Assembly (NCBI RefSeq): GCF_004346035.1
Contig: NZ_SLZN01000007.1
Span: 62,001-126,000, forward strand
Origin: Acidomonas methanolica
GTDB lineage: Bacteria; Pseudomonadota; Alphaproteobacteria; Acetobacterales; Acetobacteraceae
Reading direction: 5' to 3'
DNA: 64,000 nt
Part shown: positions 2,970-60,540 of the stretch, in pieces
Numbering within the stretch: the first letter of the stretch is position 1
Layout: every line of letters starts with the position of its first letter
The notes under the pieces: model-generated
Seen by the model: the letters and a program-made list of their open reading frames with translations, nothing else
Database searches by the model: none
Told to the model about the DNA's origin: nothing
Translations under genes and position numbers: made by a program

Positions 2970-2991
2970 GTCCGTATCCAGTTCGCCTTCC

Positions 2992-3063
2992 CTTCCTTTT
3001 CTGAAGAAAAAGAAGCAAAAGGACTTTTGGCCATTTAAACGCGAAGTCCCGCGAGAAACTCCA
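2992..3063 (+). repeat. Composite intergenic repeat, module A plus middle stem
   Basis: Partial copy of the composite element seen at ten places in this window. Present are the stem CTTCCTTTTCTGAAGAAAAAG, here slightly diverged (quoted in pieces: CTTCCTTTTCT / GAAGAAAAAG), the link CAAAAGGACTTTT, and a middle stem GAAGTCCCGCGAGAAACTCC. The poly-T module B is missing. It lies between the gp25/W-like and J-like baseplate genes. Confidence 0.8.
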
Positions 3064-3068
3064 AACCC

Positions 3069-4054: not shown

Positions 4055-5130
4055 GCCAAACCTCCCATCCGATCCCGCAACACCACCTCCTGGACGAACC
4101 CCTCCTCCGGCTTCATCCGCGACACCACCTCATCCACCGCCAGAATCCCGGGAAATGCCGATACCCCCGACACAACGCCCCGCGCGAAATGCCGCGGCCT
4201 CAGCGCCTCATTCCCCGGAATCCGCACCCGCGCCTCCAGACGATGCGCCGCGATCCGTGCATATTTCCATCTCGCAATGGATTTCACCTCGTCCAGCCGC
4301 CGTCCCGGCACGCGAAAGCTGTGAACCAGCCCGCTCCCCGGCGCCGTGGCCGAAAAGCCCGACCCGTCATAGAAAATCTCCGACCGGCTCCGCTGCCGCC
4401 CGTCCCAGGACGCGACATGCACCACCAGCCCCTGCGTCGCCGTCAGATCCCGCCGCACATCATGCGCCATCGCCAGCCCCGACAGATCATGCACCACCGC
4501 CGTCCCGTCATCCGGCGCCAGCATGGGCGAAGCCGTCAGAACGGTTCCGTCCGCGTAAAGATCGCAACAGGCTTCCCGCGCCAGGAAAAACGCCAGATCG
4601 AACGCCGTCTGGAAGCGATGCTGCGCCAGCACCGCCATGCGCTTGTGCTCGATCTGCCAGAACTGCCCCGTCATTCCCGCCGCCGCGCCGAAATCCACCG
4701 ACGCGCCCAGCCCCGCCGCCGAAGCCATCGCCGCGACCAGCTCGGGCGCGGTGAAATTCAGCCACGCCTCCTGAACGCGCAAATCCAGCAGCCGCGACAG
4801 ATAATCCCGGCACGCCACCACCGCCCTCCCATCCTCGGGACGCCAGACCACCGCATCCGCCACGCCCCGGAACAGCGTGACCCAGGACGCACCCGGCCGA
4901 TCCGCCCGAAGAACCTGCACGGAAATATCCAGCCCGCTCGCCGTCTCCGCCGCGAACCACGGCGTGGCTCCGCCCAGCGCCGTCTGATCGACCGCCAGCG
5001 CGATCTCCGCCGTATCGCAGCGTTCATACCGGCTCGCCCGGATCTCGAACCCCGTCACCGGCGTCCCCGCCGACACCGCCCCCGCCACCAGAAGCCGCAC
5101 CGACCAGACACGAGACGCCGTCCCGCTCAC
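4051..5130 (-). CDS. Tail hub protein, gpD / gp44-like
   Basis: A 359-residue protein with a GTG start whose first base pairs overlap the stop of the X-like gene. The domain layout matches phage late-control D / hub proteins (T4 gp27 fold): N-terminal barrel with SRYERCDTAEIAL, a segment LSRLLDLRVQEAWLNFTA, then FQTAFDLAFFLAREACCDLYADG typical of hub domain III, seen here as two separate short motifs (FDLAFFLAREACCDL). It lies directly between X-like LysM protein and spike, the usual X-D-V order, supporting a hub ring that holds the spike. Confidence 0.8.
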   Translation of the reverse strand: MSGTASRVWSVRLLVAGAVSAGTPVTGFEIRASRYERCDTAEIALAVDQTALGGATPWFAAETASGLDISVQVLRADRPGASWVTLFRGVADAVVWRPEDGRAVVACRDYLSRLLDLRVQEAWLNFTAPELVAAMASAAGLGASVDFGAAAGMTGQFWQIEHKRMAVLAQHRFQTAFDLAFFLAREACCDLYADGTVLTASPMLAPDDGTAVVHDLSGLAMAHDVRRDLTATQGLVVHVASWDGRQRSRSEIFYDGSGFSATAPGSGLVHSFRVPGRRLDEVKSIARWKYARIAAHRLEARVRIPGNEALRPRHFARGVVSGVSAFPGILAVDEVVSRMKPEEGFVQEVVLRDRMGGLA

Positions 5131-5330
5131 GCCGAACGCTCCGGCAAGCCCGTCGTCAGAACCGTGGACACCGGCGGCATCTCCAGAAAGACCGGCGCCG
5201 CGAGAACGGTGAGATCAGGGTCCGTCATTCCGTTGAGCTGGGCAATCCGCCACCACTGCGTCGCATCCCCCAGTTGAACCGCCGCCACATGATAAAGCGA
5301 CACATCCGCCGCCGTGACCTGCACCGCCAT
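5127..5330 (-). CDS. Tail protein X-like (LysM-type) small protein
   Basis: A 67-residue protein beginning MAVQVTAADVSLYHVAAVQLGD. The pattern with TQWWRIAQLNGMTDPDL is the LysM-like core of P2 gpX-type tail proteins (WWRIAQLNG). An ATG at 5330 is preferred; a reading from 5441 would run through non-coding sequence. The stop overlaps the GTG of the hub gene. About 115 bases upstream hold no gene but include a degenerate relative of the repeat stem near 5408-5433. Confidence 0.75.
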   Translation of the reverse strand: MAVQVTAADVSLYHVAAVQLGDATQWWRIAQLNGMTDPDLTVLAAPVFLEMPPVSTVLTTGLPERSA

Positions 5331-5445
5331 CGTTCCCCATACCCCCGATGCCTTCAATGTCGCTCTCGCCGGATCGTCAGAAGCCTCTTCGCTTCGCGAG
5401 CCGATCATTCTTCCTCGGAAACAGAAGAAACCCGTCCCCAAAACA

Positions 5446-6348
5446 TCATCCGACCGGCACGGATGGCGTCACACCCCCGGCCAGCGCGACATTGGCCGCC
5501 GCACGATTGACCAGCCCCGCCGCATCCGCCGCCGCACTTGCCAGCCCGGCATTCTGCGTCGCCGCCCCGAGCGAAGCTCCGTCGCTTAGCACGATCCCTT
5601 CGAGATTCGCCCCCGTCTGCCCCAGAAGCGTGGAAAGCCCGCTCCCCGCCGCCGAAAGTCCGGACAACAGCGTGCTGACGACCGACGGCGCTCCCGCCAG
5701 ATCGACGCCCGCCTGCGCCGCGCCATTGACCGCCGCGAGCGCATTCGTCACCGTGGCCACCGCCCCGCCCGCCCCCAGCAAGGCCGCCACCGGCGTCACC
5801 TGCCCGACGATCGTGCCGACCTGCCCGGCCAGCGTATAGACGCCGCCGGACACATCGCTCACGACCGCGCTCAACCCGGACAGCGCCCCGCCCACATCGC
5901 CGGAAATCGCGCCCCCGACATCCTCCGCCGCCGCAGCCGCCAGATCGGCCCGCTCCAGCACGAGCATATAGGCGCACACCGCCCCCCGCGCCTGATAGGA
6001 ATAGGCGAACTGCGCGATCCAGACCTGACAGGACAGACCCGCCGCCGAAAACGCCACCGCCGCACCCGCCGCCCGCATCCGCTCGACCATCCGCGCCCGC
6101 GCCTGCGCCTGCGGCCCGACGAACCGGCCGCGCAGGATCAGCCGGTCGGGATCGTTCCCCAACACGTCGATCACCCGTCCGCCGCCCAGGAGGCGATGCA
6201 CGGTCAACTGCTGCTGCCCGCCCACCACCAGCTCGTCAGGCACCTCGAGCCCGGTCAGCACCATCCCGCCGATCACGACCGGCGCGGTCGCGCCCATGCG
6301 CCCGACCGCCCCCACCGCCGCCTCGATTTCCGTGAAGCTTACGCTCAT
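5446..6348 (-). CDS. Putative tail/baseplate protein (300 aa)
   Basis: Begins MSVSFTEIEAAVG at an ATG at 6348; a GTG at 6357 in frame is possible. The first 140 residues hold GGQQQLTVHRLLGGGRVIDV and SCQVWIAQFAYSYQARGAVC, which resemble the N-terminal domain of Mu gp43-type DNA circularisation/tail proteins that sit between tape measure and hub. The C-terminal half is a long low-complexity Ala/Gly/Val/Leu region, likely helical and able to contact the tail tube or membrane. Position between the broken tail gene and the X-like gene supports a virion role; exact family unsure. Confidence 0.6.
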   Translation of the reverse strand: MSVSFTEIEAAVGAVGRMGATAPVVIGGMVLTGLEVPDELVVGGQQQLTVHRLLGGGRVIDVLGNDPDRLILRGRFVGPQAQARARMVERMRAAGAAVAFSAAGLSCQVWIAQFAYSYQARGAVCAYMLVLERADLAAAAAEDVGGAISGDVGGALSGLSAVVSDVSGGVYTLAGQVGTIVGQVTPVAALLGAGGAVATVTNALAAVNGAAQAGVDLAGAPSVVSTLLSGLSAAGSGLSTLLGQTGANLEGIVLSDGASLGAATQNAGLASAAADAAGLVNRAAANVALAGGVTPSVPVG

Positions 6349-6362
6349 CGCCCGCACCGTCC

Positions 6363-7201
6363 TCAGAACCCCACACTCGCCCCCGCGAATTGCGGCCAGG
6401 CGATTTCGTCGAACGCCGCCGAGGACGTCCGCAAATGAAACGCGCCCAGCCCGTCCAACGCCGGAGCCGACCGCCGACCATGCGCCGCATCAACCCGGGC
6501 CGCCGTCCCGGCTTCCGGCCCCGCGCGATCCGCCCCCGGCCGCCGCGCGTCCTCCGCCACGCCGGGATCGCGGCCCGACCCATAGGCCACCCCGTCACGC
6601 CCGGACCACGGCGGAACGACGGCGCGTCGCCGACGGGATGGCGGCAAAACCCCCGCGCCTCCAGGCCGACCATCACGCCGGACCGGCACAGCCGAACGCG
6701 CCCGCGCCACAGGCGGAAGAGCAACGCCCGCCATCCGCACCAACCGCGCGGACACGCCTGAAACCCTTCCCACCGCACCAACCGCGCGGACACGCCTGAA
6801 ACCCTTCCCACCGCCGATCCGCGCCTCATGCGCCCGCTCTCCGCGGCGGGACGAAAGCTCTTCCGCCCCACCCCCGCCGCCCCGACCAGACCACGCCAGA
6901 AACCACCTGACGGAAACGCCCCGCCCCCCACGACATCGCCCCGCCGCCGCTCGACGGCAAATCGCTCCATTCCACCGACCGGCAGCCCCCGCGTCGCGAA
7001 CCGCCGCCCGCTCCCGACGCGCCCAACGGACTCCCCGGCCGCCGCAACCGCACCGGACCGCCCGCGCACCAGCGGCCGCGCCCGAACCCGCCCAACCCGC
7101 CCAACCGGCACGACCCGCGCCTGCCGCCGTCCCGCCAGCCGTACGACCCAACCCAGCCGCGCCGCCGCCGGAACGGCCCGTTTCCTCACACGCTCACCCA
7201 T
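6363..7201 (-). pseudogene. Tail gene in tape-measure position, broken by a 38-bp tandem duplication
   Basis: Starting MGERVRKRAVPAAARLG at 7201 (the ATG overlaps the stop of the chaperone extension), the frame runs about 130 codons to a perfect 38-bp tandem duplication at 6735-6814. Removing one unit joins this frame exactly to the frame that ends AFDEIAWPQFAGASVGF at 6363, five bases from the next gene. The restored protein would be about 267 residues, rich in Arg and Gly. In myophages this slot normally holds the tape measure, so this would be either a very short or a remnant one. As it stands the reading is shifted by +2. Family not recognised; the frame argument is direct from sequence. 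Confidence 0.6.
6735..6814. repeat. 38-bp tandem duplication (2.1 copies)
   Basis: Bases 6735-6776 and 6773-6814 match perfectly at an offset of 38. Each unit starts CCGCACCAACCGCGCG. The flanking bases differ (6734 T versus 6772 A; 6777 A versus 6815 C), so the copy is a clean duplication. Thirty-eight is not a multiple of three, and the event shifts the reading frame of the tail gene it lies in. Confidence 0.95.
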
Positions 7202-7690
7202 CGCGATACCGCATCGCCTCCCAGTCGAAGACCGCCCCGAGCTGCTCGGCGATCGCCACGCAAGCCGCCATCCGCCGCACCCGCGACCAGCCCCGCACAA
7301 CCTCCCACGGCACCCCATGACGCAGGAGATAGAGCACCTCCCCGAACACAGGGTGCCGACTCAGTTTTTTGCCGCGTTCTCCAGGCCGTCCGGCGCGCTC
7401 CCGCCATCCTCCGCGTCGAAGAGCGGACGCAGCGCCGCGATCCCGTCCGTCCCGATCCGCCGCGCCAGCGCCTTCACCTCGTCCTTGGACAACGGCATCT
7501 GGACGGGCACGCCGTCGATCGCCGTCACGGAACAGACCATCTCCGCATAGGCCAGCCAGGACGAGGCCGAGGCCCCGTTCATGGCCGAGCCCGCCGCCTC
7601 GATCAGATCCAGCATGTCGCCCGGATCGATCTCCCGCACCGCCAGCCTGCGCCCCGCCGACGTCACGACCTCCACCGGCAGCGCGCTCAC
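7194..7690 (-). CDS. Tail assembly chaperone E-E' fusion by -1 frameshift
   Basis: Reading E from 7690 to the heptamer A AAA AAC at 7370-7364 and slipping back one base continues in frame for 56 codons, giving LSRHPVFGEVLYLLRHG and ending FDWEAMRYRDG at a stop at 7194. The fused product is about 165 residues. This is the conserved strategy of contractile and siphophage tail assembly chaperones (lambda G/GT, P2 E/E', Mu gp41/42), which coat the tape measure. The heptamer touches the 0-frame stop, and a short hairpin GCACC/GGTGC (7356-7334) begins 7 bases after it. The extension has a normal amino acid make-up, unlike a random frame. Confidence 0.85.
7361..7690 (-). CDS. Tail assembly chaperone E, 0-frame product
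   Basis: A 109-residue protein with a GTG start (VSALPVEVVTSAGRRL) that overlaps the stop of the tube gene as GTGA. The core VREIDPGDMLDLIEAAG and the segment LAYAEMVCSVTAIDGVPV are like Mu-type gp41/E chaperones that follow the tail tube. It ends FDAEDGGSAPDGLENAAKN, the last two Lys/Asn codons being part of the slippery site. Together with the longer frameshift product it is expected to chaperone the tape measure before tube polymerisation. Confidence 0.8.
   Translation of the reverse strand: MSALPVEVVTSAGRRLAVREIDPGDMLDLIEAAGSAMNGASASSWLAYAEMVCSVTAIDGVPVQMPLSKDEVKALARRIGTDGIAALRPLFDAEDGGSAPDGLENAAKN
7364..7370 (-). promoter_or_regulatory. Slippery heptamer A AAA AAC
   Basis: On the minus strand the codons read GCA AAA AAC TGA, so the heptamer is in the correct 0-frame phase for tandem -1 slippage and abuts the stop codon. 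A 5-bp stem GCACC (7356-7352) / GGTGC (7338-7334) starts after a 7-base spacer, the usual distance for a stimulatory structure. Confidence 0.85.
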
Positions 7691-8112
7691 GAGATCTTCA
7701 CCCGCGTCGAGGCGAAGAACTGCACCGTGTAATGCATCATCTCCTCCGCCGCCCAGCGATCCGTCTCCAGCGTCATGGTGACATTGGTGTATTCCCATGT
7801 CGTCTGGCTGCCGTCCGGCTCGCTGATATACTGGTAGATCGTCCCGCTGCCGAGAATGCCGCCATTCCAGAACGCGGCCTCCACCGCCGCCACGAGACTG
7901 TCCAGCGTCGCGTCCGCCCGCACCACGCCGAACGATCCGCGCCAGCCGCCCGGCGTATTGAACACCACCGGCACGCTGTTGAGCGGATCGGCCCGCTGCG
8001 CCCGCGTCACCTGCGACGCCTGGAACGACGTCACATCCCGCATGTCGACGCGCGACCCGTTCCACAGCAGCGTCACCCGGCAATTCCGCCCGATACTATA
8101 CGGATTGGCCAT
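7687..8112 (-). CDS. Phage tail tube protein
   Basis: A 141-residue protein starting MANPYSIGRNCRVTLLWNG. Size, beta-rich make-up and position directly after the sheath gene (2-base gap) match myophage tail tube proteins (Mu gpM-like). The middle holds PLNSVPVVFNTPGGWRGSFGV and the end TVQFFASTRVKIS. It polymerises into the inner tube through which DNA passes. Its stop overlaps the chaperone GTG, so translation is probably coupled. Confidence 0.8.
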   Translation of the reverse strand: MANPYSIGRNCRVTLLWNGSRVDMRDVTSFQASQVTRAQRADPLNSVPVVFNTPGGWRGSFGVVRADATLDSLVAAVEAAFWNGGILGSGTIYQYISEPDGSQTTWEYTNVTMTLETDRWAAEEMMHYTVQFFASTRVKIS

Positions 8113-8114
8113 GC

Positions 8115-9605
8115 TCAGACGCTCCCGCCGGACGTGGACGTCGTGACCGTCACGGACGTCCCGCCCTGAAGATTGACGATGAATTTCTCGTTGATGCCCT
8201 GGTAGCGGACCTGAATATCCGCCTGCACATATCCCAGCGCCGTCCGCGCCTGCGGATTGTTCGTGGAATCACACACCACCGCATAAGGCAGCGCGCCGCC
8301 CTGCACCCCCAGAATTCCCTGCGACACCAGAGAGGACAGGAACCCGAGCAACGTCGCGCGGATATCGCCGAAGAGCGTGTCGTTGATGACGCTGCCCACA
8401 TACGCGCCCATGCCGCCCGCCAGAGACGTCGCCAGATAATTCGTCAGCCGCGTGTAGTTGTCACCCTGGATCGTCACGCTGCCGGACGTATTATGCCCGC
8501 ACCGCACCGCCCAGTACGATCCCCCCGGCGCCGGATTGCAGATCACGTCGATCCCGGCCTGGAACAGCACGGCCAGATCGGCGGAGGAATAACTCCCCGT
8601 CCCGCCCGTCAGCCCCGCCTTCTGACTCCCCACGACGCCATAAAGCTGCTTGTTGAGGCTCGACTGCTCGGGCGAGAGCGCCGCCAGCTTCCCCGCCGCG
8701 AAACCCTGCGGCGACACCAGCATCAGCCCGTTCGTGTCGTCGTTCCACCAGATCCAGTCGCCGAACATCAGCTTGACGGCACAGGAGTCCAGCCCCGCCG
8801 CCGCCTTCACCGCCACGGCGTCGGTGAGCGTGTCCCCCGCCGGCCCGCAGGCCACCATATAGACGCCCTCGCCCAGCCCGAACGCCGCCTGCGCCGTCCA
8901 GGTCGCGGAATCCGAAATTCCGTGCAGCACCGCGACCGAACATCCCTGTCCCCGCAAGGCATACATGCCCGTCCGCGCCGTCGCGTCGGAGCCGAGAAAA
9001 GCCGCGCTCGACGGCACGCCGCCATCCGCGCCGCCCGCCAGCGTCACCGTCCCCACTGCGACGGCCGGAACCGTCGCCGGCACGGACAGCGCCACCAGCG
9101 CGCCCGAATCCGCCGCCACCGCCGCCGCCAGAGCCGTCCAGCTCGCACCGGCATAATAGGACGCGCCCAGAACCGGATGCGCCACCGTCAACGCCCAGCC
9201 CTGATTCGCCGCACTCGCCGTCACGACGATGCCGTTGCCCGACGAGCCGGTATGAACCGCCGTCACCGTCACGCCCTCCAGCGTGGCGGACGCCGCCTCA
9301 TCCGTCCCGTCCGTCACCCGCACGATCCGGAACGACGACGCGCCCTGCATGAGCGCGATATCCACCGCCAGCCCCGCATCCGTCACCAGAGACTGCTTGG
9401 CCCCGAAGGACTGGAGATAATCCCCCATGCCGCCCACGGGCACCGGCATGTTCACCGGCCCCCAGGACGCCGTCCCGACAACCCCCATCACGCCCCAGCC
9501 CACCCCGGAAAGCGCCAGGGTCTGCGGCTGCGCGATCTGCACATAGAGATCGGGCACCACAAGCGCCGTCGTATTCAGCGCCCCCGCCTGATAAATCCGC
9601 GACAT
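8115..9605 (-). CDS. Phage tail sheath protein
   Basis: A 496-residue protein starting MSRIYQAGALNTTALVVPD. Sheath hallmarks are the N-terminal region with VGTASWGPVNMPVPVG, the central WIWWNDDTNGLMLVSPQGF segment, and the C-terminal YLATSLAGGMGAYVGSVIN and IQVRYQGINEKFIVNLQGG, where the closing strand engages neighbouring subunits. Length and order (sheath then tube) fit Mu gpL relatives. It defines this prophage as contractile. A full composite repeat lies just upstream, which is unusual inside a tail operon. Confidence 0.92.
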   Translation of the reverse strand: MSRIYQAGALNTTALVVPDLYVQIAQPQTLALSGVGWGVMGVVGTASWGPVNMPVPVGGMGDYLQSFGAKQSLVTDAGLAVDIALMQGASSFRIVRVTDGTDEAASATLEGVTVTAVHTGSSGNGIVVTASAANQGWALTVAHPVLGASYYAGASWTALAAAVAADSGALVALSVPATVPAVAVGTVTLAGGADGGVPSSAAFLGSDATARTGMYALRGQGCSVAVLHGISDSATWTAQAAFGLGEGVYMVACGPAGDTLTDAVAVKAAAGLDSCAVKLMFGDWIWWNDDTNGLMLVSPQGFAAGKLAALSPEQSSLNKQLYGVVGSQKAGLTGGTGSYSSADLAVLFQAGIDVICNPAPGGSYWAVRCGHNTSGSVTIQGDNYTRLTNYLATSLAGGMGAYVGSVINDTLFGDIRATLLGFLSSLVSQGILGVQGGALPYAVVCDSTNNPQARTALGYVQADIQVRYQGINEKFIVNLQGGTSVTVTTSTSGGSV

Positions 9606-9649
9606 TCACCCTTCCTTTGATTTCTTCGCGCGCGGCAAAAAGGGGGCTC

Positions 9650-9768
9650 CTTCTTTTTCTGAAGAAAAAGAAGCAAAAAGACTTTCAATCATTCAGCGTC
9701 GGAGTTCCCCAGCGAAACTCCGCGGCCAAGTCAAAAAAGTTTTTTGGTTCTTTTTTTCAAAAAAGAAC
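9650..9768 (+). repeat. Composite intergenic repeat, full copy
   Basis: Complete element: stem CTTCTTTTTCTGAAGAAAAA, link with CAAAAAGACTTTC, middle stem GGAGTTCCCCAGCGAAACTCC read as GGAGTT / AACTCC arms, then AAAAAAGTTTTTTG and stem GTTCTTTTTTT / AAAAAAGAAC. The stretch from the first stem to the last is the same as the copy at 15204-15322. It separates the sheath gene from the gene at 9776-10753. Confidence 0.9.
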
Positions 9769-9775
9769 GACCCCA

Positions 9776-10753
9776 CTACCCCACCGCGCACACAGTCCCG
9801 AACGCATCCACCGACAACCCCGCATAGGGCGACGCCGCCGTCACTCCCTGCACGGCCGCCGCCTCCGCCGCCAACGCGGCGGCGCCCGATTGCCCGGCCG
9901 CCGCCATCACCGCATCCCCGAACGCCACCTCGAATTCCGGGCCGGAAAACGCCCCGGCCCCGAACAGCATCTGCGCCGCCCATTGCGATTCGATCGTGTC
10001 GAACAGGACATTGAAAACGAGATCCCGCCGATACAGCGACTGCACCTGCAAGGTATCGACATCCCCCGCCCCGTCGAAGGAGAGTAGCGCCTCGCCGCCA
10101 TCCAGCGTGGCGAGCCAGCTCATCCCCGCCAGAGCCGTATCCAGCGCGCTTCCCAACGCATCCCGCGCCATCGCGCTGCCCGTCCAGATCGAAAGCCGCA
10201 CCTTCTGGCTCTGCCGCCGCGTCACCCGCACCGACTGGCCATATCCCGCGACCTGCCCCGTCAAAACGCCGGACGCCACGCCGATCGAAGCCCCCCGCGC
10301 CGTCGCCCCCGGAAAACCCGCCGCCAGACCCGCCGCGATACTGGCCGCCGTATCGCCGGACGACGCCGCATAAGCCGCCGTCACCGCCGTCGCCGCGCCC
10401 GTCTCCCACCGCAGCCCGACGACGCCGCACACCGCGCCGGAGGACGGCGCCGTCACATTCGCCACTGCCCCGGCACAGGACACGCCGACCGTCGGGGCGA
10501 TCGTCGCCCCCTCCCGCCACGGCCAGCCCAGCGGCTCCGCGACGGGCCGAAACCCCTCCAGCGCCGCCGTGACTGTGACGTAATCCACACTGTCCCGCAC
10601 CGATTGCGCGGAATACATGTCATTCGGCAGCAGCCAGCCCCGCCGGATCACCGTCTGACGCCCGGTAACGGATGCCGCCGACAAACCCTGCGGATAGATC
10701 GCCCGCGCGCAGACATAAGCCAGCGCCAGCGACACCTGGGAAATATCCGTCAT
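9776..10753 (-). CDS. Phage virion-associated protein (325 aa), family not recognised
   Basis: Begins MTDISQVSLALAYVCARAIYP at an ATG at 10753, one base after the stop of the upstream gene; a longer reading from 10813 lies inside that gene and is rejected. The sequence is rich in Ala, Gly, Ser and Val with few charged residues except GQSVRVTRRQSQKVRLSIW (residues about 165-185). It lies in the connector-to-sheath interval, where neck, terminator or decoration proteins are found. No catalytic motif is visible. I infer a structural neck or tail-terminator role from position only. Confidence 0.6.
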   Translation of the reverse strand: MTDISQVSLALAYVCARAIYPQGLSAASVTGRQTVIRRGWLLPNDMYSAQSVRDSVDYVTVTAALEGFRPVAEPLGWPWREGATIAPTVGVSCAGAVANVTAPSSGAVCGVVGLRWETGAATAVTAAYAASSGDTAASIAAGLAAGFPGATARGASIGVASGVLTGQVAGYGQSVRVTRRQSQKVRLSIWTGSAMARDALGSALDTALAGMSWLATLDGGEALLSFDGAGDVDTLQVQSLYRRDLVFNVLFDTIESQWAAQMLFGAGAFSGPEFEVAFGDAVMAAAGQSGAAALAAEAAAVQGVTAASPYAGLSVDAFGTVCAVG

Positions 10754-10754
10754 C

Positions 10755-11351
10755 TCACACCTGTTGCGTCGCGATGGTGCAGCGGAGTCCGAAAGGCGAC
10801 ACCTCGACCGCAACCACGGTATAGGACGTCCCCAGATCGGTCGTGACGACCATGTACGGCGTCAGAACCACCCCCGGCAGCCCCGGCATGATCATCAGGA
10901 ACTCCCCCGGCCGCAGCGATCCCGGCATGCCGGTATTCATATGCTCGCCATGCGCCCGCATGATGATCGAGACCGGACAACCCGCCACCACCTGCGCCGC
11001 GCTCCCGGCGGCCCCGGCCACCGAAACCACCCGGTCGCACAGGACGCAAAGCGGCGGCCGCAACGGCTCGACACGCGCCACGAAATACGTGTCCGCCCCG
11101 CTGACGAGCACATCCCCCGCCAGCACATCCGTCGAATCCATCAACGCATGCCGCATCGGCGCGCCCCAGTCGGCCGGCGCGGAAAACCCGAACGCCGCCG
11201 GGCTGTCGAACGCCATCATCGGCGTCGCATGCACCTCGGCCAGCGGCGTCAGCGCGCTGACCGGCCGATATTGCGTCCCCACGCTCCCCAGCCGCGCCAC
11301 CGCCGCCGCATAGCCGGCCTCCACACGCTGCTGAATCGTCGCAAGCTGCAC
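10755..11351 (-). CDS. Phage head-tail region protein (198 aa), unknown family
   Basis: Starts MQLATIQQRVEAGYAAAVARL. The N-terminal 30 residues form an amphipathic helix; a later part with YFVARVEPLRPPLCVLCDRVV and MIMPGLPGVVLTPYMVVTTD is beta-rich. It sits between a 133-residue connector-type protein and the 325-residue protein, 19 bases from the former and 1 from the latter. Proteins in this slot usually close the head-tail junction. No motif proves a named function. Confidence 0.6.
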   Translation of the reverse strand: MQLATIQQRVEAGYAAAVARLGSVGTQYRPVSALTPLAEVHATPMMAFDSPAAFGFSAPADWGAPMRHALMDSTDVLAGDVLVSGADTYFVARVEPLRPPLCVLCDRVVSVAGAAGSAAQVVAGCPVSIIMRAHGEHMNTGMPGSLRPGEFLMIMPGLPGVVLTPYMVVTTDLGTSYTVVAVEVSPFGLRCTIATQQV

Positions 11352-11370
11352 CGCATGCCTCCAGAAAAAA

Positions 11371-11772
11371 TCAGACCACGATCCGCGACCCGTCCGCCAT
11401 GTCCGGCCCCGGCGGCACGCCGAGAAACCCGCACAGACGGCGACGCCAGAGCACGTAAAGCTCCATCCGGTCGCGCACCTCGTTCGGGTTGTGCGTCCAG
11501 ACCGCCGCCTTCCCGGTATCGAGATTGGCCGAAGCCCCGACCACCGCCGTCTCCAGCGGATAGATCTGCGAAAGATAAAGCCTCACCTGCATCAGTTCGC
11601 TGGAAGACAGATTGTTCATCCGCCATTCCAGCGAGCCATAGGCGGTAAAGAACCGCCACGAATCCTCGCCGCTCGCCACGCTTCCGATCGCCGGATAGCC
11701 GCAGAACCGGCGCACATCCGTCTTCTCCGCATCGGCAAGCGGCGCATCGGAGAAAGCCGAGCTTCCGGACAC
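11371..11772 (-). CDS. Putative head-tail connector protein (133 aa)
   Basis: Starts MSGSSAFSDAPLADAEKTDVRRFCGYP. Mostly alpha-helical: VRRFCGYP, SSSELMQVRLYLSQIYPLE and VRDRMELYVLWRRRLCGFLG look like the helices of gp6/gp15-type connectors. It follows the capsid gene by 12 bases, the normal place of the first head completion protein. The end PGPDMADGSRIVV is short and flexible. Function is inferred from order and helix content. Confidence 0.55.
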   Translation of the reverse strand: MSGSSAFSDAPLADAEKTDVRRFCGYPAIGSVASGEDSWRFFTAYGSLEWRMNNLSSSELMQVRLYLSQIYPLETAVVGASANLDTGKAAVWTHNPNEVRDRMELYVLWRRRLCGFLGVPPGPDMADGSRIVV

Positions 11773-11784
11773 GCCACACCCCCG

Positions 11785-13164
11785 TCAGTTGATCAGGCCG
11801 AGCGCATCCGTGCCCAGGCTCTCGATCACCACACCACGCTTGAGATAAGCGTTCGTCGCCGTCGGAATGACGTTGACGTTCGCCGTCACGTCCGTCGGCA
11901 GCGCGAAGCCGCCGATCCAGTACCAGGACTGCGCGATGATCTGCCGCAGACGGTCCAGCGGCTCGCGCGTCACCATCGCCACCCCGTCGACGATTTCGAT
12001 CAGCGAACGGTCCAGCTCGGGAATGTCGCTATGCCCCACGAAGGAGCAATCCCCCTCGACCAGCGCCCCCTGGCCGACCAACAACGCACGATGGACCGGA
12101 CCAGCCCCCAGAGAGGCCTGCTGCGGCGCTTCCGTCGTCGGAATGAAGCGCACGCCCAAAAGCTCTATGACGTTTCCGGAACGATACTCTTCCGATCCAT
12201 ACGCGCCACGGTAGAGATATTTGAAATCCGCGTCGCGGAAGAGCGAGAGAAGCTGGAGATCGTCGAGATAGCAATGATACGCCCCGTCGATCATCGGCAC
12301 GTTGTTGCGCCGCAGCGCCGCCACCCCCGCCAGCACGTTCTGGATTCCCAGCGTATCCGCCGGACCCGACGCACTCGCCGTCGCCAGCGCCGCCGTCGTC
12401 AGACGCCCGTTGGGGCGGATCACCAGCGGCGCGATCGATGCCACCACCGCATTCCCCGCCGTCCCGTCCGAGACCGACACACCGGACGAGAACACGAGCT
12501 GACCGGAAATCCCTCCCGGCGCCGTGGACATATTGGTCGCATCCGCCTCCGTCCCCACCAGCGTGTAGACGTCCGATCCCACCGTCACCGTCATGCCGTT
12601 GGTCGCGGAAACGCTGACCACCTGACCATTGACGATGACATTCTGGAAGCCGCGGATATCGTCCACCTCCACGCTCGTCCCCGCCGAACCCAGCGTGGTG
12701 ACGACACGCGTATTGCCGCCGAGATACCCGCCCACGCCGCTCGACGCCCCGCCGAACAGCGTATTGCGCGCCAGCCGGTCCAGCGACTGCATCGCCTGAA
12801 TGCCGTTGGTGTTCGCATTCGCCAGAAACTGCGAGGCGATGCCGACCCCCGACGTCACCATGTTCAGGTCGATCGTGTCGCCATACTGGTTGATCGACAG
12901 CGTATATTGCTCGATCGACCAGCCGCTCGGCGAAAGACCATTGTCGAAATTCGTATTCGTCGTCGGCGTCATGGGCGTCGTCACCGGCGCCTTGAGGCTC
13001 TTGCGCGTCTTGGTCAGCGTTTCACCGATGGCATTGGGAAACACCTCGCGATCCGCCACCTGGCGAAACCCCAGGCGCGACCGCAATCCGTTCTCGAATT
13101 CGCGCGCCAGAAAACCCTGCTGAATGGCAGCCTGAAGCTGCACCGGAAAATTCTCGATGCCCAT
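11785..13164 (-). CDS. Major capsid protein
   Basis: A 459-residue protein starting MGIENFPVQLQAAIQQGF at 13164. A longer reading to 13236 runs through the composite repeat and is rejected. The order portal, scaffold, capsid and the motifs RKSLKAPVTTPMTPTTNTN, LSINQYGDTIDLNMV and, near the end, WYWIGGFALPTDVTANVNV are as in HK97-fold coat proteins of the P22/N4-gp56 kind. A mid-protein Gly/Ser/Thr/Val region (about 170-300) could be an inserted surface domain. It forms the icosahedral head. The size and alignment-free motifs support the call; the exact subfamily is open. Confidence 0.8.
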   Translation of the reverse strand: MGIENFPVQLQAAIQQGFLAREFENGLRSRLGFRQVADREVFPNAIGETLTKTRKSLKAPVTTPMTPTTNTNFDNGLSPSGWSIEQYTLSINQYGDTIDLNMVTSGVGIASQFLANANTNGIQAMQSLDRLARNTLFGGASSGVGGYLGGNTRVVTTLGSAGTSVEVDDIRGFQNVIVNGQVVSVSATNGMTVTVGSDVYTLVGTEADATNMSTAPGGISGQLVFSSGVSVSDGTAGNAVVASIAPLVIRPNGRLTTAALATASASGPADTLGIQNVLAGVAALRRNNVPMIDGAYHCYLDDLQLLSLFRDADFKYLYRGAYGSEEYRSGNVIELLGVRFIPTTEAPQQASLGAGPVHRALLVGQGALVEGDCSFVGHSDIPELDRSLIEIVDGVAMVTREPLDRLRQIIAQSWYWIGGFALPTDVTANVNVIPTATNAYLKRGVVIESLGTDALGLIN

Positions 13165-13209
13165 CTGTTCCGTTCCAATGTTTTTCTGAAAAGTCAAAAA
13201 AGAGAAGAC

Positions 13210-13328
13210 CTTCTTTTTCTGAAGAAAAAGAAGCAAAAAGACTTTTGATCCTTCCGCCGCGGAGTTCCCCGAAGAAACTCCACAGCCAGGTCAAAAAAGT
13301 TTTTTGGTTCTTTTTTTCAAAAAAGAAC
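13210..13328 (+). repeat. Composite intergenic repeat, full copy
   Basis: All three modules are present: CTTCTTTTTCTGAAGAAAAA, a middle stem GGAGTTCCCCGAAGAAACTC (arms GGAGTT/AACTCC), and GTTCTTTTTTT / AAAAAAGAAC. It lies between scaffold and capsid genes, so it splits what is normally a tight pair. Confidence 0.9.
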
Positions 13329-13336
13329 GCCCACCC

Positions 13337-13771
13337 CTATTTCCCGGCCAAAAACTGCCACTTCCGCGCCGCATAATCCGTGTCGGACAGCTTGCGCGCA
13401 TCGAAAGGCGGCGCCTCGCCCGGCCGCGGCGCGGCAACGGCGAAGGTGCTCCCGCTCGCCGTCCCCGGCACGCCGCCTGCGGAAAACAGATAGCCCCGCT
13501 CGCGCCGGCACCGCTCGATCGCCGCGGCGACGCCACGCACCTCGCCGTCATCCCCGCGCGCCACCTCGCTGCGATCCATCAGCCGCACCACGTCGTCCGG
13601 ATTATGCGCGCCCAACCGCATGGCTTCGGCCCGCAGGCTCGCGGCAATCACCGCCTGATCGCCCTCGGCCCGAACCCTGGCCAGCGCCGCCTCATGCACG
13701 TCACGCATCGCCGACAACTCGCCCTGCGCCGACTCCAGCGCCCGCCGCAATTCCTCAACGTCCTCGCTCAT
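13337..13771 (-). CDS. Capsid scaffold-like protein (GP20-type)
   Basis: A 144-residue protein starting MSEDVEELRRALESAQGELS with an N-terminal coiled coil (residues 1-40) and then LRAEAMRLGAHNPDDVVRLMD, the segment GAHNPDDVVRL being characteristic of minor structural GP20/scaffold proteins. The C-terminus ends DTDYAARKWQFLAGK with basic residues that could contact the capsid. The gene overlaps the portal gene by 4 bases and precedes capsid, the classic scaffold slot. It guides procapsid assembly and should leave or be cleaved at maturation. Confidence 0.7.
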   Translation of the reverse strand: MSEDVEELRRALESAQGELSAMRDVHEAALARVRAEGDQAVIAASLRAEAMRLGAHNPDDVVRLMDRSEVARGDDGEVRGVAAAIERCRRERGYLFSAGGVPGTASGSTFAVAAPRPGEAPPFDARKLSDTDYAARKWQFLAGK

Positions 13772-15189
13772 TCCGCCCCCTCATCCCCTGCTCCGGCGCC
13801 AATCCGCTCCCACTCCGCCGCCGGATCGGCACAGCCCGTCGACGCCGCGAACACCCGCGACGCCGTCTCGCGGCTGAGAATGCCGCCCGCGCACGCCGCC
13901 ACCAGCCCGGAGGCCAACGACGACACCTCGTTTTCCGACGCGGCGAACCAGGGCGGCCATTGCAGGGCCAACCCGGCGGGATCGAGATTCCGCACGAGCC
14001 CCCCGCCCAGCCGCACCCCCTCCTCGACCACCGAGGAAAAGCGGCACAACATCCGGCAAAGCGGCACCAGCCCGCCCTCGCCATAAGCATGACGCAAACG
14101 ATCCGCCAGCCAGATCAGCGGCTGGCACATCATCTCCATTGCCCGCCCGGACTGCCCGGCCGAGATCCGGTCGCCATGCGCCCGGTTGCCATGCAACTGC
14201 TCCAGCACGAGCTGCCGCAACTCCCGGTAATGCGCGAGCACCGCCCCCGCCGCATTGCCGTTGATTTCCAGCAGCTTGGCATCCCCTTCCGGCGGCAGAG
14301 TCAACGCCGTCGCCGCCCCGCCCTGCCGCGCATCCCCCTCGGGAAATCCCCCGGTCTTGAGAACGAGCGTCGGATCGGAGCCGTATTTCAGCCCGCGCCC
14401 GGCCTGCGACATGAGATAATCCGCCTCGATGACGGTATCGATCGCCCGCTCGAACGTGCATTCCCCGTCCAGCTCGCCCGCCCCGCTCCGGCCCGGATTG
14501 CGGATCCAGACCAGCGGCACGAACCCCAGCCCATGCCGGACCGAACGGACAGGATCGCGCGCCGACGGCTCCTCCCCCAGCGGACAGGGCAGAAACACCG
14601 CACAGTCATCCCGGTCCCAGACCCGCTGCCACCAGAACCGCGTCTCCATCCTCTCCGGCGCGATCGCATAACCCTGCGCCGCAAGATCACGCCCCGCCAC
14701 CGGATAACGCTCCGTCACGGACAGCAACGCCCCCGTCGCCATGTCCCGGACCGGCGTCAGATACGCCGTCTCCAGCACGGTCAGACGCGGCGCATGATCC
14801 ACCAGCTCGACCAGAATCGCGACGGACCCCACCGAACCCAGGATCGCCGCCTCGGTCATGAGCGAGGCCAGCCCCGCCTCCCGGGCGAACATCCCCAGCG
14901 CCCGCACCGTCCGTGCATCCTCCGCCATCACCGCCGGCCAGTGCGTGTCGCCGAACAGCAGGGAAACGGACTCGTCCACCACCGTCCGGCACAAATTCGT
15001 CCGCACGGACGGACGCCGCATCGCCAGCGGAATATACTCCCCCGCCCCGGACCGCTCCCGCGCGAACGGATTGGGCAACACGTCATATTGCGTGCCCGCG
15101 AGAACCCGCCCGAGCGCCAGCAATCGCCCCGCGCGCGCAGGCAAACCCGCAGGCGTCACGTAATGACGCTGCAATGACAGCCAATCCAT
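13768..15189 (-). CDS. Portal protein
   Basis: A 473-residue protein starting MDWLSLQRHYVTPAGLPA at 15189 with ribosome site GGGAGAA seven bases upstream; longer readings pass through the repeat. Portal features: NLCRTVVDESVSLLFGD (wing entry), FWWQRVWDRDDCAVFLP, LVWIRNPGRSGAGELDGEC, and a long helical crown region AGAVLAHYRELRQLVLEQL, typical of SPP1 gp6-like portals. It lies between large terminase and scaffold. As dodecamer it forms the DNA gate and docks terminase and connector. Confidence 0.88.
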   Translation of the reverse strand: MDWLSLQRHYVTPAGLPARAGRLLALGRVLAGTQYDVLPNPFARERSGAGEYIPLAMRRPSVRTNLCRTVVDESVSLLFGDTHWPAVMAEDARTVRALGMFAREAGLASLMTEAAILGSVGSVAILVELVDHAPRLTVLETAYLTPVRDMATGALLSVTERYPVAGRDLAAQGYAIAPERMETRFWWQRVWDRDDCAVFLPCPLGEEPSARDPVRSVRHGLGFVPLVWIRNPGRSGAGELDGECTFERAIDTVIEADYLMSQAGRGLKYGSDPTLVLKTGGFPEGDARQGGAATALTLPPEGDAKLLEINGNAAGAVLAHYRELRQLVLEQLHGNRAHGDRISAGQSGRAMEMMCQPLIWLADRLRHAYGEGGLVPLCRMLCRFSSVVEEGVRLGGGLVRNLDPAGLALQWPPWFAASENEVSSLASGLVAACAGGILSRETASRVFAASTGCADPAAEWERIGAGAGDEGAE

Positions 15190-15203
15190 AAATTCTCCCT
15201 CTT

Positions 15204-15322
15204 CTTCTTTTTCTGAAGAAAAAGAAGCAAAAAGACTTTCAATCATTCAGCGTCGGAGTTCCCCAGCGAAACTCCGCGGCCAAGTCAAAAAAGTTTTTTG
15301 GTTCTTTTTTTCAAAAAAGAAC
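15204..15322 (+). repeat. Composite intergenic repeat, full copy
   Basis: Full element, same bases as the copy at 9650-9768 over the whole length as far as I can compare by eye. It separates large terminase from portal. Confidence 0.9.
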
Positions 15323-15342
15323 GAAACCCAACCACCCGCCCG

Positions 15343-16647
15343 TCACCGGGCGAAACTCACTCCCCCGCCCCAGCGCGCCTCACCGCCAGACTCCAGCATC
15401 AACGTGCTCACTCCCCAGACCATGGCATCCGCCCGGTCCGGCGATTTCGCCCCGCGATAGCCCTGCGCGGAAAAGCGGCAAAGCTGATCCTCCAACACCT
15501 CGAACCGTCCATGATGAAAGACCTTTCCCATCTCGTAGAGCGCCGCCACCGGCTCCGCCCGCGCGGATTTCCCGCGCGCCGCCACCACGCTCCGCACAGG
15601 CGCCGCCGCCCGCACGCCGCGGATCGTCGCCTCCACCAGCGCCCCGCCGAAATTCCGCTCGGCCACGATGCGCTCGGCCCGCCATTCGTCGAACGCCTTC
15701 AGCGCCCGCGCGGCCCAGGCCGCCGGCCCGTCCCGCAAGGACGCATCCTCCAGAACATGCCCGTTCCCTTCCGCATCGACGCCACACACCACGATGCCGA
15801 TCTCATCGGAACGGACATCCTCCGGCCCCGACGCCCCGGACGGATCGACCGCAACGACGATCCGCCGCATCGACCGCGCGACCTCCTCGCGCGACCCCGC
15901 CGAAATGACGGGGCGCCTGCGGAACATCTCGATCCGCCACAGCGCCCCGTCCACCACGGCCTGATATTCCCCCAGCAGAAACCGCCGCCGTTCCCGCTCC
16001 GGCAAAGCCTCCAGCTGACTCAGATAGTGCGCGCTCAAATTCTCCCGGTTGCTGTCCGGATTCAAAATCATCGTCGCATATAAATGCCGGTCCGCGAGCG
16101 CCTCCCCGGATTTCGGATCGACACCCGCCTCGAATAATGCGTAAAGCCAGTGATCCGTCGCGGGCGGATTGGCGTCGATATATTCGCGCACCTCCAGACC
16201 GCAACGCTGCGCCAGCCGCGTCAGCAAAACATTGCGCGCGCCATAGCTGATCTGACTGGCCTCGTTCAGAAACACCGTCGCGAATTCCAGCCCGAGAATC
16301 TTCTCGGTCCGCTGCGCATCGTCCAGCCCCCCGAAAAAGATCGAGGAACCGTTGGGAAACCGCACGAGATTGTCCTCCCGGTCGAGCCGGTACGGCACGC
16401 CCGGAAAACACAACCGCATCACCTTCGGAAACGTGTCGAGCAGAATGCTCGCCCGCAACGCCACCAATCGATAGCGGAACACCCCGTGCCGACTCCCCTC
16501 CGCCTTCAACGCCCGGATCACCATCGCCCGCAGCAGGAGAAACGTCTTGCCCGACCGCGATCCCCCCCGAAGCAGAATATGCCGCGCCCCGCCCGCAAGG
16601 AGCCCGTTCGCCGCCACCTGCCCGGGATTGAGCCTAAAGCCCGTCAT
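15343..16647 (-). CDS. Large terminase subunit
   Basis: A 434-residue packaging ATPase/nuclease. Walker A is GGSRSGKT (residues 28-35), Walker B lies in FATVFLNEASQ (about 118-128), with a coupling segment YIDANPPATDHWLY after it. The nuclease half has VVAVDPSGASGPEDVRSDE (about 260) with the first Asp, ERNFGGALV, and DRADAMVWG near the end with the last Asp. It overlaps the small subunit by 14 bases. It cuts the concatemer and pumps DNA through the portal. Length is normal. Confidence 0.93.
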   Translation of the reverse strand: MTGFRLNPGQVAANGLLAGGARHILLRGGSRSGKTFLLLRAMVIRALKAEGSRHGVFRYRLVALRASILLDTFPKVMRLCFPGVPYRLDREDNLVRFPNGSSIFFGGLDDAQRTEKILGLEFATVFLNEASQISYGARNVLLTRLAQRCGLEVREYIDANPPATDHWLYALFEAGVDPKSGEALADRHLYATMILNPDSNRENLSAHYLSQLEALPERERRRFLLGEYQAVVDGALWRIEMFRRRPVISAGSREEVARSMRRIVVAVDPSGASGPEDVRSDEIGIVVCGVDAEGNGHVLEDASLRDGPAAWAARALKAFDEWRAERIVAERNFGGALVEATIRGVRAAAPVRSVVAARGKSARAEPVAALYEMGKVFHHGRFEVLEDQLCRFSAQGYRGAKSPDRADAMVWGVSTLMLESGGEARWGGGVSFAR

Positions 16648-30424: not shown

Positions 30425-30545
30425 CGTTCCTTTATTGAAAAAAAGAACCAAAAACTTTTCCGACCTGGCGACGAAATCCCCCGGCGAGACTCCCGAACCC
30501 AAGCGATCGAACGTCTTTTTGCTTCCTTTTCTTCAGAAAAAGAAG
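30425..30545 (-). repeat. Composite intergenic repeat, inverted copy 1
   Basis: Module B first (GTTCCTTTATTGAAAAAAAG, diverged arm), middle, then module A (CTTCCTTTTCTTCAGAAAAAG in parts CTTCCTTTTCT / AGAAAAAGAAG). Orientation is opposite to the prophage copies. A second copy follows 33 bases on. Confidence 0.85.
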
Positions 30546-30577: not shown

Positions 30578-30694
30578 GTTCTTTTTTGAAAAAAGAACCA
30601 AAAAACTTTTTCGACCTTGCCTGGGAGTCCCCAGTGAAGCTCCGTCGCCAAAGAACCAAAAGTCTTTTTGCTTCTTTTTCTTCAGAAAAAGAAG
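30578..30694 (-). repeat. Composite intergenic repeat, inverted copy 2
   Basis: Full element: GTTCTTTTTT / AAAAAAGAAC perfect stem, middle GGGAGTCCCCAGTGAAGCTCC, and CTTCTTTTTCT / AGAAAAAGAAG perfect stem. Together with the previous copy it fills the 390-base gap between the aminotransferase and the next gene; I see nothing else there except a possible promoter near 30775. Confidence 0.9.
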
Positions 30695-39425: not shown

Positions 39426-39543
39426 GTTCTTTTTTGAAAAAAGAACCGGAAGGCTTTTGCGACTTTGACTGCGGAGTCCATAACGGGCTTCCGCAGTCAA
39501 AAGATTGAAAGTCTCTTTTCTTCTTTTTCTTCGGAAAAAGAAG
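39426..39543 (-). repeat. Composite intergenic repeat between dnaK and dnaJ
   Basis: Inverted copy: perfect GTTCTTTTTT / AAAAAAGAAC stem, diverged middle (CTGCGGAGTCC / TTCCGCAG arms), and CTTCTTTTTCTTCGGAAAAAGAAG, with TTCG loop change. It lies in the 160-base dnaK-dnaJ gap, so it would be transcribed if the two are one unit. Confidence 0.88.
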
Positions 39544-43758: not shown

Positions 43759-43832
43759 CTTCTTTTTCTGAAGAAAAAGAAGCAAAAAGACTTTTGATCG
43801 TCCGGCTGCGGAGTCTCGCCGGCGGGACTCCG
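43759..43832 (+). repeat. Composite intergenic repeat, A plus middle
   Basis: CTTCTTTTTCT / GAAGAAAAAG stem, CAAAAAGACTTTTGATC, and middle stem GGAGTCTCGCCGGCGGGACTCC given as arms GGAGTC/GACTCC. Module B is missing. It lies between trpA and chvI. Confidence 0.85.
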
Positions 43833-43840
43833 AGGCAAAG

Positions 43841-44578
43841 ATGGAAAACAGGCAGTCGATGATGGAACCCACCACCAGGCACACGATCGCTCTCGTGGAC
43901 GACGACCGCAACATCCTGACCTCGGTGCAGATGGCGCTGGAGGCGGAGGGCTTCATCGTCCACACCTATACGGACGGCGAGGCCGCGTTGCAGGGGATCG
44001 GCGCGCGCCCGGTCAGCCTCGCGGTGCTGGACATCAAGATGCCCCGCATGGACGGGATGGAACTCCTGCAAAGACTCCGCGCCCGTTCGGCCCTGCCGGT
44101 GATCTTCCTCACCTCGAAGGACGAGGAGCTGGACCAGCTCATGGGCCTGCGCCTCGGCGCGGACGACTACATCACCAAACCCTTCTCGCAGCGCCTGCTG
44201 CTGGAACGCATCCGCGCGCTGCTCCGGCGGCAGGAAGCCAGCCGCGCCGAGGCCAACGGCGCCCCCGGCGCGGCGAGCGCCCTGTTGCGCGGCAGCCTGA
44301 CGCTGGACGAAACCCGCCATCAATGCCTCTGGGCCGGGAAGGACATCCCGCTGACGGTGACGGAATTCCTGCTGGTCAAGGCGCTCGCCCTGCGCCCCGG
44401 CATGGTCAAATCGCGCGACCAGCTCATCGACGCCGCCTATGGCGACAACATCTATGTCGATGACCGGACGATCGACAGCCATATCAAGCGCGTCCGCAAG
44501 AAATTCCGCCAGGTGGACGAGGCCTTCAACCAGATCGAGACGCTCTACGGCATCGGCTACCGCTACAAGGAAGACTGA
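43841..44578 (+). CDS. chvI: Response regulator, ChvI family
   Basis: A 245-residue OmpR-type regulator. Receiver: [15 protein letters not shown] acidic pair, phospho-acceptor Asp64 in [22 protein letters not shown], and Lys in [10 protein letters not shown]. Winged helix: [20 protein letters not shown] and [20 protein letters not shown], ending [11 protein letters not shown]. Followed by the kinase gene after 6 bases. In Alphaproteobacteria ChvG/ChvI governs acid and envelope stress. Start could be ATG 43859 or 43862. Confidence 0.93.
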
Positions 44579-48001: not shown

Positions 48002-48007
48002 AAGCGT

Positions 48008-48187: not shown

Positions 48188-48270
48188 AGACATGCCTCCG
48201 GTGGAGGGTCCGGGCGGCGGGAGCGTCCGGCCGTTTCGAACCCCCTCCGGTCACTTCGGGAGAGAATGAC

Positions 48271-58173: not shown

Positions 58174-58228
58174 CCGGCACGGGGCGCGTGTCATCACGCA
58201 CGACGCCCCACCCGAAGCCTCCGACGCC

Positions 58229-58269
58229 AACCAAAAGACGTTTTCTGGTTCTTTTTTCCAAAAAAGAAC
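58229..58269 (-). repeat. Composite intergenic repeat, module B only
   Basis: AAAAGACGTTTTCTG then the stem GTTCTTTTTT / AAAAAAGAAC with CC loop. It lies 50 bases after hup and ends four bases from the stop of the convergent gene, where it may act as a two-way end signal. Confidence 0.75.
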
Positions 58270-58273
58270 GAGT

Positions 58274-60494: not shown

Positions 60495-60530
60495 CTTCTT
60501 TTTCTGAAGAAAAAGAAGCAAAAAGACTTT
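60495..60530 (+). repeat. Composite intergenic repeat, module A only
   Basis: CTTCTTTTTCT / GAAGAAAAAG stem and CAAAAAGACTTTT. It abuts the 175-bp tandem repeat that follows. Confidence 0.8.
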
Positions 60531-60540
60531 TAAAAGAAAG

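Follow-up and report, generated by a model that had tools for sequence, protein, structure and literature searches.

Intrastrand triplex motifs have been known in bacterial genomes since 2000, and Holder et al. (2015) described such motifs (ITxF) in 5246 prokaryotic sequences (PMC4666352). According to that text, an ITxF comprises three segments of 6-15 nt of one triplex class with loops of 1-6 nt, purine-motif triplexes cannot form in RNA, and a comparison with scrambled genomes was read as a more integral role for G/C-rich motifs; in vitro folding is known for one G/C-rich motif, and a function has yet to be established (PMC4666352). The motif TM-ECO (BoxC, PIT) of Escherichia coli is G/C-rich, with the consensus CCCTCNCCC-GGGNGAGGG-GGGNGAGGG, and folds into a triplex in vitro that footprinting failed to show in vivo; in E. 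coli, TM-ECO is linked to genome instability. The same text describes TM-ECO/BoxC as always intergenic and without strand bias, and refers to earlier work on BoxC/PIT that found DNA polymerase arrest in vitro, yet neither an effect in vivo nor any promoter or terminator activity (PMC4666352).

Here, a repeat is described from a 64-kb stretch of the Acidomonas methanolica genome (64,000 nucleotides of NZ_SLZN01000007.1; hereafter, the window). Its modules belong to this known kind of sequence, the intrastrand triplex motif: the purine strings are mostly 6-8 nt with a tract of equal length, and the loops are 2-4 nt, or 5 nt by inspection, as in the ITxF rule, below which purine strings of 5 nt (10 sources) fall. 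Also common to both (PMC4666352) are the strand orders of class II (pyrimidine arm, purine arm, tract) and class IV (tract, pyrimidine arm, purine arm), segments of at least 6 nt in most modules, short loops, and numbers that differ sharply between relatives. Unlike the ITxF set, the present modules form a defined A/T-rich family in G+C-rich genomes, with tract-hairpin covariation across copies, a lean towards 3' ends, and inverted pairs around a stem. A/T-rich modules of this type may be contained, unremarked, in the Holder et al. database; the main text mentions neither Acidiphilium, Acetobacter, Gluconacetobacter, or Ruminococcus nor covariation (PMC4666352), and in a literature search on the module sequence and on repeats of Acetobacteraceae, Komagataeibacter, and Acidiphilium, no title or abstract opening described this family.

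With TM-ECO/BoxC, the modules share the hairpin plus third tract and the intergenic location. Membership of that family was rejected because the modules are A/T-rich, do not fit its consensus, and the element has no match in E. coli genomes. TM-ECO/BoxC is moreover found more often upstream than downstream of genes and at loci rearranged among strains (PMC4666352), whereas the copies described here lean to 3' ends and their alignable sites are mostly kept between two species. Like REP/BIME sequences, the modules are small, palindromic, intergenic, and single or in inverted pairs (partly after PMC3733652). Unlike REP/BIME systems with RAYT, the genome to which the window belongs lacks a Y1 transposase domain. 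To our knowledge, no third-tract rule is known for REPs. REP palindromes carry a GTAG or CGTC tag at one end, and the modules described here have ends of the CTTC/GTTC types. ERIC repeats measure ~120 bp, and the full element resembles MITEs and ERIC-like repeats in being an imperfect inverted repeat of that size, with inverted modules at both ends in the manner of MITE terminal inverted repeats; it differs from them in that no target duplication and, in one species pair, no clean insertion polymorphism was found, and in that its ends obey a structural rule.

Anatomy and distribution of the repeat

A preliminary description, made from the letters of the window, had proposed ten sites of a composite three-stem repeat with separable modules. 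BLAST, a profile search, and inspection of the sequence found full or partial copies at 10/10 sites, six of them full, and single modules without a partner end do exist (Table 1). A full copy (~119 bp) consists of two inverted hairpin modules flanking a variable central stem, in the order left hairpin, tract C-AAAAAGAC, central stem, tract GTTTTTTG, and right hairpin; its right half repeats the left half in inverted and diverged form. The ends are sharp in 16 aligned full copies, which start with CTTCTTTTTCTGAAG and end with AAAAAAGAAC, with small variations, and have differing flanks. For instance, the copies at 9650 and 15204 share 99% identity over 124 bp between unlike flanks. The copy at 9650 ends 6 nt before the stop of gene 9776-10753 (- strand). 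A strict module pattern matched six times in the window and never in 100 shuffles of it; BLAST matches in the whole genome numbered 45, and 416 kb of that genome held 32 profile loci, 31 of which have no overlap above 30 nt with a called gene.

Table 1. Window coordinates of the repeat copies and of the parts of the copy at 9650
Feature	Position	Strand	Basis
Full copy 9650 (left module, central stem, right module)	9650..9769	+	nhmmer profile match 1-120 and sequence
Copy 9650, left hairpin CTTCTTTTTC-TGAA-GAAAAAGAAG	9650..9673	+	sequence; covariation of such hairpins
Copy 9650, left third tract AAAAAGA	9675..9681	+	sequence; tract-hairpin coupling
Copy 9650, central stem core GGAGT...ACTCC	9701..9721	+	sequence and fold
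Copy 9650, right third tract TTTTTT, opposite purine string AAAAAA	9740..9745	+	sequence; coupling
Copy 9650, right hairpin GTTCTTTTTTTCAAAAAAGAAC	9747..9768	+	sequence; hairpin covariation
Partial copy: left module and part of centre	2992..3062	+	profile search
Full copy, 7 nt from stop of gene 13337-13771 (-)	13210..13329	+	profile search
Full copy, 99% identical to copy 9650	15204..15323	+	profile search
Full copy	30426..30545	-	profile search
Full copy, 32 nt from the copy at 30426..30545	30578..30694	-	profile search
Full copy, 8 nt past stop of gene 37510-39417 (+)	39426..39543	-	profile search
Left module and central stem, without right module	43759..43847	+	profile search
Right end only, inside a convergent spacer	58208..58270	+	profile search
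Left module only; second repeat family directly after	60495..60532	+	profile search

The window also contains a prophage (~1830-16647) with terminase, portal, major head, sheath, and baseplate genes (PHROGs; 8/10 proteins with a family match), and an IMG/VR contig (L062) carries three copies at the same spacing as in this prophage. An exact 38-bp tandem duplication is present at 6735-6810. The only Rfam family at gathering score in the window is a cobalamin riboswitch, located away from the repeat (47998-48196, 132 bits, upstream of called gene 48271-50535 on the + strand); every Rfam match to copy 9650 scored below the gathering score, and five Ruminococcus/Rikenella loci had no Rfam match.

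The repeat is not limited to this strain. Within Acetobacteraceae, the strict pattern was found in 74/299 genomes and 29/102 genera; the highest count per genome is 469 (G134), and a reversed control pattern matched none of the 299 genomes. Numbers are patchy, e.g., 0 to 132 strict matches per genome within one genus (g74). In a survey of the class Alphaproteobacteria, 2/385 genomes had strict matches, both from the family, and 0/380 genomes outside the family did. A scan of named genomes gave at least 80 loci, and the matches listed include Acidiphilium rubrum, Gluconacetobacter liquefaciens, G. tumulicola, G. aggeris, Asaia MAGs, Neokomagataea thailandica, Roseomonas sp. GC11, Rhodovarius crocodyli, and Pseudoroseomonas aestuarii. 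Also among those listed are five loci outside the family, from MAGs labelled Rikenellaceae, Rikenella, or Ruminococcus (L100, L126, L135, L158, L138); these labels are the depositors' own, and locus G+C, the only contamination indicator, is 0.52-0.60, and 0.39 for Ruminococcus. Three such assemblies contained 15, 11, and 73 matches; two of the three are Rikenella- and one is Ruminococcus-labelled. The phage collection gave one Microviridae record for the element (MG945182.1, with 34 bases identical to the right module) and none for the prophage region, and the plasmid collection gave two Pseudoroseomonas cervicalis records for element and prophage region alike. Given its presence in these MAGs and in one Microviridae record, the pattern is therefore not confined to the family.

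Pairing in the hairpins and the central stem, and a covarying third tract

It had been proposed that all three stems are kept as pairing while the bases between vary. All three stems are present, but the end hairpins are nearly invariant in the window, which therefore cannot by itself show their covariation. Over all fetched DNA, covariation is present: all four outer arm positions pair in 657/708 distinct modules, against a permuted mean of 332 and a maximum of 368 (2000 permutations), in a parse that did not require these four letters to be complementary. The arms include CTTC/GAAG (412), GTTC/GAAC (221), CTAC/GTAG (7), CTGC/GCAG (5), TTTC/GAAA (5), CTCC/GGAG (4), and GTCC/GGAC (2), next to unpaired combinations such as CTTC/GAAA (8). 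Wobble-type exceptions at the outer pair favour no strand (C-A 10, T-G 8), and within a genome the outer arms show no copy-specific covariation. In 195 elements with C or G ends, C-G, C-C, and G-G combinations number 128, 64, and 3 (expected 88, 84, and 23); the excess of C-end/G-end pairs (128/195) resembles the close inverted pairs of TM-ECO/BoxC, which always join a type A and a type B (PMC4666352). Pairing of the two end hairpins into one long hairpin was rejected, as the ends often differ and each hairpin pairs with itself.

Pairing of the middle stem (GGAGT/ACTCC in copy 9650) is maintained between lineages and not copy by copy in one genome. When one element was taken from each of 31 genomes, arms paired at -21.4 kcal/mol in cis and -14.1 kcal/mol in trans, and in 200 resamplings trans pairing was never as strong as cis pairing; this comparison used named and G-handle sources and left out viral contigs and other loci. 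Within genomes, the corresponding values are -20.5 (61) and -19.7 (342). Compensatory evolution specific to each copy was rejected: own arms pair no better than those of another copy. This was the case both in the genome of the window (G000, n = 9) and in Acidiphilium (n = 17, being the 17/33 full elements that the parser could cut, with 16 dropped). Since the stem sequence is replaced while the pairing is kept, amplification of a separate palindrome in each lineage seems likely, with decay of the copies afterwards. Purines prevail in the outer left flank and pyrimidines in the outer right one, with a cis excess that is weak at most.

What the three-stem anatomy missed is a third tract next to each hairpin, covarying with it (AAAAAGA and TTTTTT in copy 9650; the left tract reads TCTTTTT on the other strand, opposite the purine string AGAAAAA). 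On the strand that reads G, tract, G, hairpin, the tract is the complement of the hairpin's purine string, base by base and in parallel. The parser looked for a near-perfect hairpin with a 3-11-nt pyrimidine tract; agreement between the two was no requirement. Purine strings of 5, 6, 7, and 8 nt occur, and tract length equals purine-string length in 646/665 parsed modules, and the exact triplex rule (T.A-T, C.G-C, and T over an inverted C) is followed in 619/665. T is the base favoured opposite an inverted C-G pair in pyrimidine-motif triplexes, and a triple helix of the pyrimidine motif requires just such a mirror relation at fixed register.

Several comparisons bear on how far this coupling exceeds chance. 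In the eight genomes with at least 8 modules, 239/259 modules are exact (permuted mean 108, maximum 131); six of these genomes exceed all of their own 500 permutations, and G071 (10, maximum 10) and G070 (8, maximum 8) do not. Two of the genomes used, G111 and G303, are not independent because orthologous modules are common to both. When modules with a purine string starting in AC are set aside, 526/540 modules agree in length (permuted mean 255, maximum 293) and 503/540 are exact. The register is fixed: after removal of the commonest haplotype, counts of C over G are 26 at shift 0 and drop to 4, 2, 1, and 1 at shifts of one or two. Distinct informative sequences alone give 11 against 4.6, a value reached by 14/5000 permutations. 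C lies over G at 199 positions; mismatches amount to 29 positions where a C is not over G and 23 where a G is not under C. By eye, five Rikenella modules (L135, L377, L385, L387, L388) keep the same triplex register although their arms are quite different. Part of the coupling could nevertheless reflect a few inherited haplotypes, as related and orthologous copies are not independent.

Placement relative to genes and possible function

Among 201 module clusters in 2.4 Mb from seven genomes, none is centred in a called gene; 113 lie in tandem, 61 in convergent, and 24 in divergent spacers, and 3 at sequence edges. This corresponds to 0.75, 1.13, and 0.28 clusters per kb of tandem, convergent, and divergent spacer, respectively. 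Distances to stops and starts, as given in the following, carry some error because the gene calls come from a simple script. In tandem spacers, 95/113 clusters are closer to the stop than to the next start, and 74/113 lie within 25 nt of the stop, compared with 35 at random placement. The lean persists when the last 40 nt before the start are forbidden (58/97 vs 38, maximum 50) and is not significant when the last 80 nt are (36/73 vs 29, maximum 39). In convergent spacers, 48/61 clusters are within 25 nt of a stop (38.8 expected, maximum 48), as are 14/26 in those with at least 80 nt free (6.7 expected, maximum 14, 2000 permutations).

The reading that we prefer, with a probability of about 0.55, is that the modules are A/T-rich intrastrand triplex elements, most likely acting on DNA at the ends of transcription units. 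The hairpin, with ~9-11 bp between a pyrimidine arm and a purine arm, would accept the adjacent tract in its major groove. The strand carrying tract and then hairpin would form a pyrimidine-motif triplex (T.A-T, C.G-C) of class IV, with the tract parallel to the purine arm, and the opposite strand a purine-motif triplex of class II. The basic unit would be the single module, and the full element two inverted modules around a lineage-specific stem. Folding may occur where a transcription unit ends and a strand is exposed, and the folded module, whatever its orientation, could then act on a polymerase or nuclease as a structural stop or boundary. This role as a boundary on DNA is a far weaker claim than the structural one. 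The triplex rule is kept in 70/73 parsed single modules (27/100 unparsed) and in 143/154 parsed paired modules (34/188 unparsed), as well as in 27/28 single modules of tandem spacers whose sense RNA could form the purine motif only. As the rule is thus conserved in both orientations and purine-motif triplexes cannot form in RNA, an action at the DNA level is suggested.

The preliminary description also considered a terminator or processing site. In such a model, which we hold to be rather doubtful, the element is a bidirectional transcription terminator or a stabiliser of mRNA 3' ends: a transcript from either direction would meet the central stem, a U-rich tract, and the second hairpin, and selection for termination or for protection from 3' exonucleases would keep the element. 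The location fits, with copies near stops and in convergent spacers, and so does the rarity of copies in short tandem spacers, given that less than 25 nt remain besides the element in 9/113 element-bearing tandem spacers, compared with a length below 25 nt in 296/963 tandem spacers without one. Full elements, in which the central stem is present, resemble a bidirectional terminator, and that stem is replaced between lineages yet still paired; three matches of a terminator scan touch or adjoin repeat copies, and the Microviridae copy follows, by eye, a long GC-rich inverted repeat. The single modules argue otherwise. In the 50 nt before the T tract of 100 single modules, the median end-stem energy is 0 and the mean -6.3, as in shuffles, and a stem below -15 kcal/mol precedes the tract in 17/100 of them, which is more than the 6% of shuffles and less than the 33% of other spacer DNA. 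A general terminator stem upstream of single modules was accordingly rejected, and terminator function is unproven because a stem ahead of the T tract is missing in most single modules. The orientation of single modules in tandem spacers is likewise without clear preference (33 L-sense, 21 R-sense), the simple terminator scan over 39,001/64,000 window bases was not enriched (19 vs 15.6 expected; 8 vs 11.3 expected), four module copies lie between same-strand genes of the prophage, and PIT elements are described as having no terminator activity (PMC4666352).

Turnover, mobility, and related repeats

The suggestion of a small mobile element found no support as regards current mobility: target duplications are lacking, sites are mostly orthologous, and the Y1 domain is mostly absent. 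Over 224 elements, target duplications of 2-10 nt never exceeded the permutation maximum, and 0/224 had one of at least 6 nt. Orthologous sites were compared in G111 and G303 (~92.5% identity in the first regions compared). Alignable flanks on both sides were available for 30/65 G111 clusters (35/65 without), and 26/30 keep a module at the orthologous place in G303; the other four sites look by eye like decayed copies, three clearly and one (C34:121719) weakly. In the reverse direction, 27/50 G303 clusters were alignable (23/50 without) and 26/27 keep the module in G111; a candidate empty site for a G303 module on C23 proved to be a paralogue mis-pairing. The alignable sites of this pair thus hold no clean insertion polymorphism. 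G168 lacks one of the G303 elements, with no duplication, and in three species of genus g78 the spacer after one gene has a full element (G077) or shorter versions (G200 and G238). Turnover is slow but real.

In the 26 conserved clusters (19 full), substitutions amount to 54/1365 in modules (4.0%), 106/817 in interior cores (13.0%), and 2266/32504 in flanks beyond 60 nt. The module value is a lower bound because the four decayed sites are excluded, so that its gap to the flanks is unreliable, and it also profits from the choice of pattern-matching G111 copies. The IS200/RAYT-type Y1 transposase domain (PF01797), the only transposase family searched, had 0 matches in the genome of the window, was absent from 11/13 genomes searched, and gave single matches in G077 and G111; a RAYT/REP origin was rejected on the absence in 11/13 genomes.

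A selfish or neutral MITE-like repeat, spread by an unknown enzyme or by template switching during replication and surviving best in 3' spacers, is an unlikely explanation. The inverted terminal modules, the patchy copy number inside genus g74, the lineage-specific interiors that decay without compensation, and the same module under labels of three phyla are what such a repeat would offer. The missing target duplications, the lack of clean insertions in the G111/G303 comparison, and the rarity of Y1 speak against it, as do modules that are better conserved than interiors and a tract-hairpin coupling that has no role in such a model. That the tract is a Watson-Crick copy of the purine arm (a slipped or alternative hairpin, or a direct repeat) with no triplex is very improbable: a copy exists somewhere in the arm in 510/665 modules, many of them T/A-only and fitting every model, but copying needs a different offset for each variant, fits 0/125 modules with a purine string AC... 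(116/125 obey the triplex rule), and by eye fails in the five Rikenella modules with other arms that fit the triplex register.

For the intrastrand triplex reading, the base-by-base and length covariation of tract and hairpin offers evolutionary evidence for conserved three-stranded pairing. The coupling provides a testable mutational design, i.e., breaking one triple and restoring it via the third tract, and a search grammar independent of sequence. The repeats suggest the evolutionary preservation of a DNA structure of a kind that is little understood. At 60530-60879, the window has a second palindromic repeat, which is G/C-rich, directly adjoining the module at 60495; it comprises two 175-bp tandem units that are 93% alike, and its form GGGTTT-CC-AAAGGG-loop-CCCTTT-GG also fits an intrastrand triplex. 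Over all fetched DNA, a predicted antiparallel third tract is present in 55/253 mixed CC-purine hairpins, against a permuted mean of 19 and a maximum of 28 (500 permutations), and 198/253 do not fit. Tentatively, and short of an even chance, A/T-rich intrastrand triplexes, together with this reverse-Hoogsteen second family, may be real DNA structures maintained in evolution, on the grounds that one module type with the same allowed triples is found in Alphaproteobacteria and in Ruminococcus (Clostridia) and Rikenella (Bacteroidota) MAGs, and that the G/C-rich family in the window obeys a reverse-Hoogsteen version of the rule. If true, functional structured DNA in bacterial spacers would have a general signature, triple-helix covariation, that can be searched for.

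Units like the second repeat follow A/T modules in the Ruminococcus MAG and were observed at two loci of G681 (L376, L389), and a related 165-bp unit occurs in G111 (C44 ~88226, L313) and not in G303. In Rikenella-labelled loci (L377, L381, L385, L387, L388) and their relatives, the module comes after other long palindromes, often with a GGATGCGC...GCATCC hairpin as well, forming a larger composite repeat.
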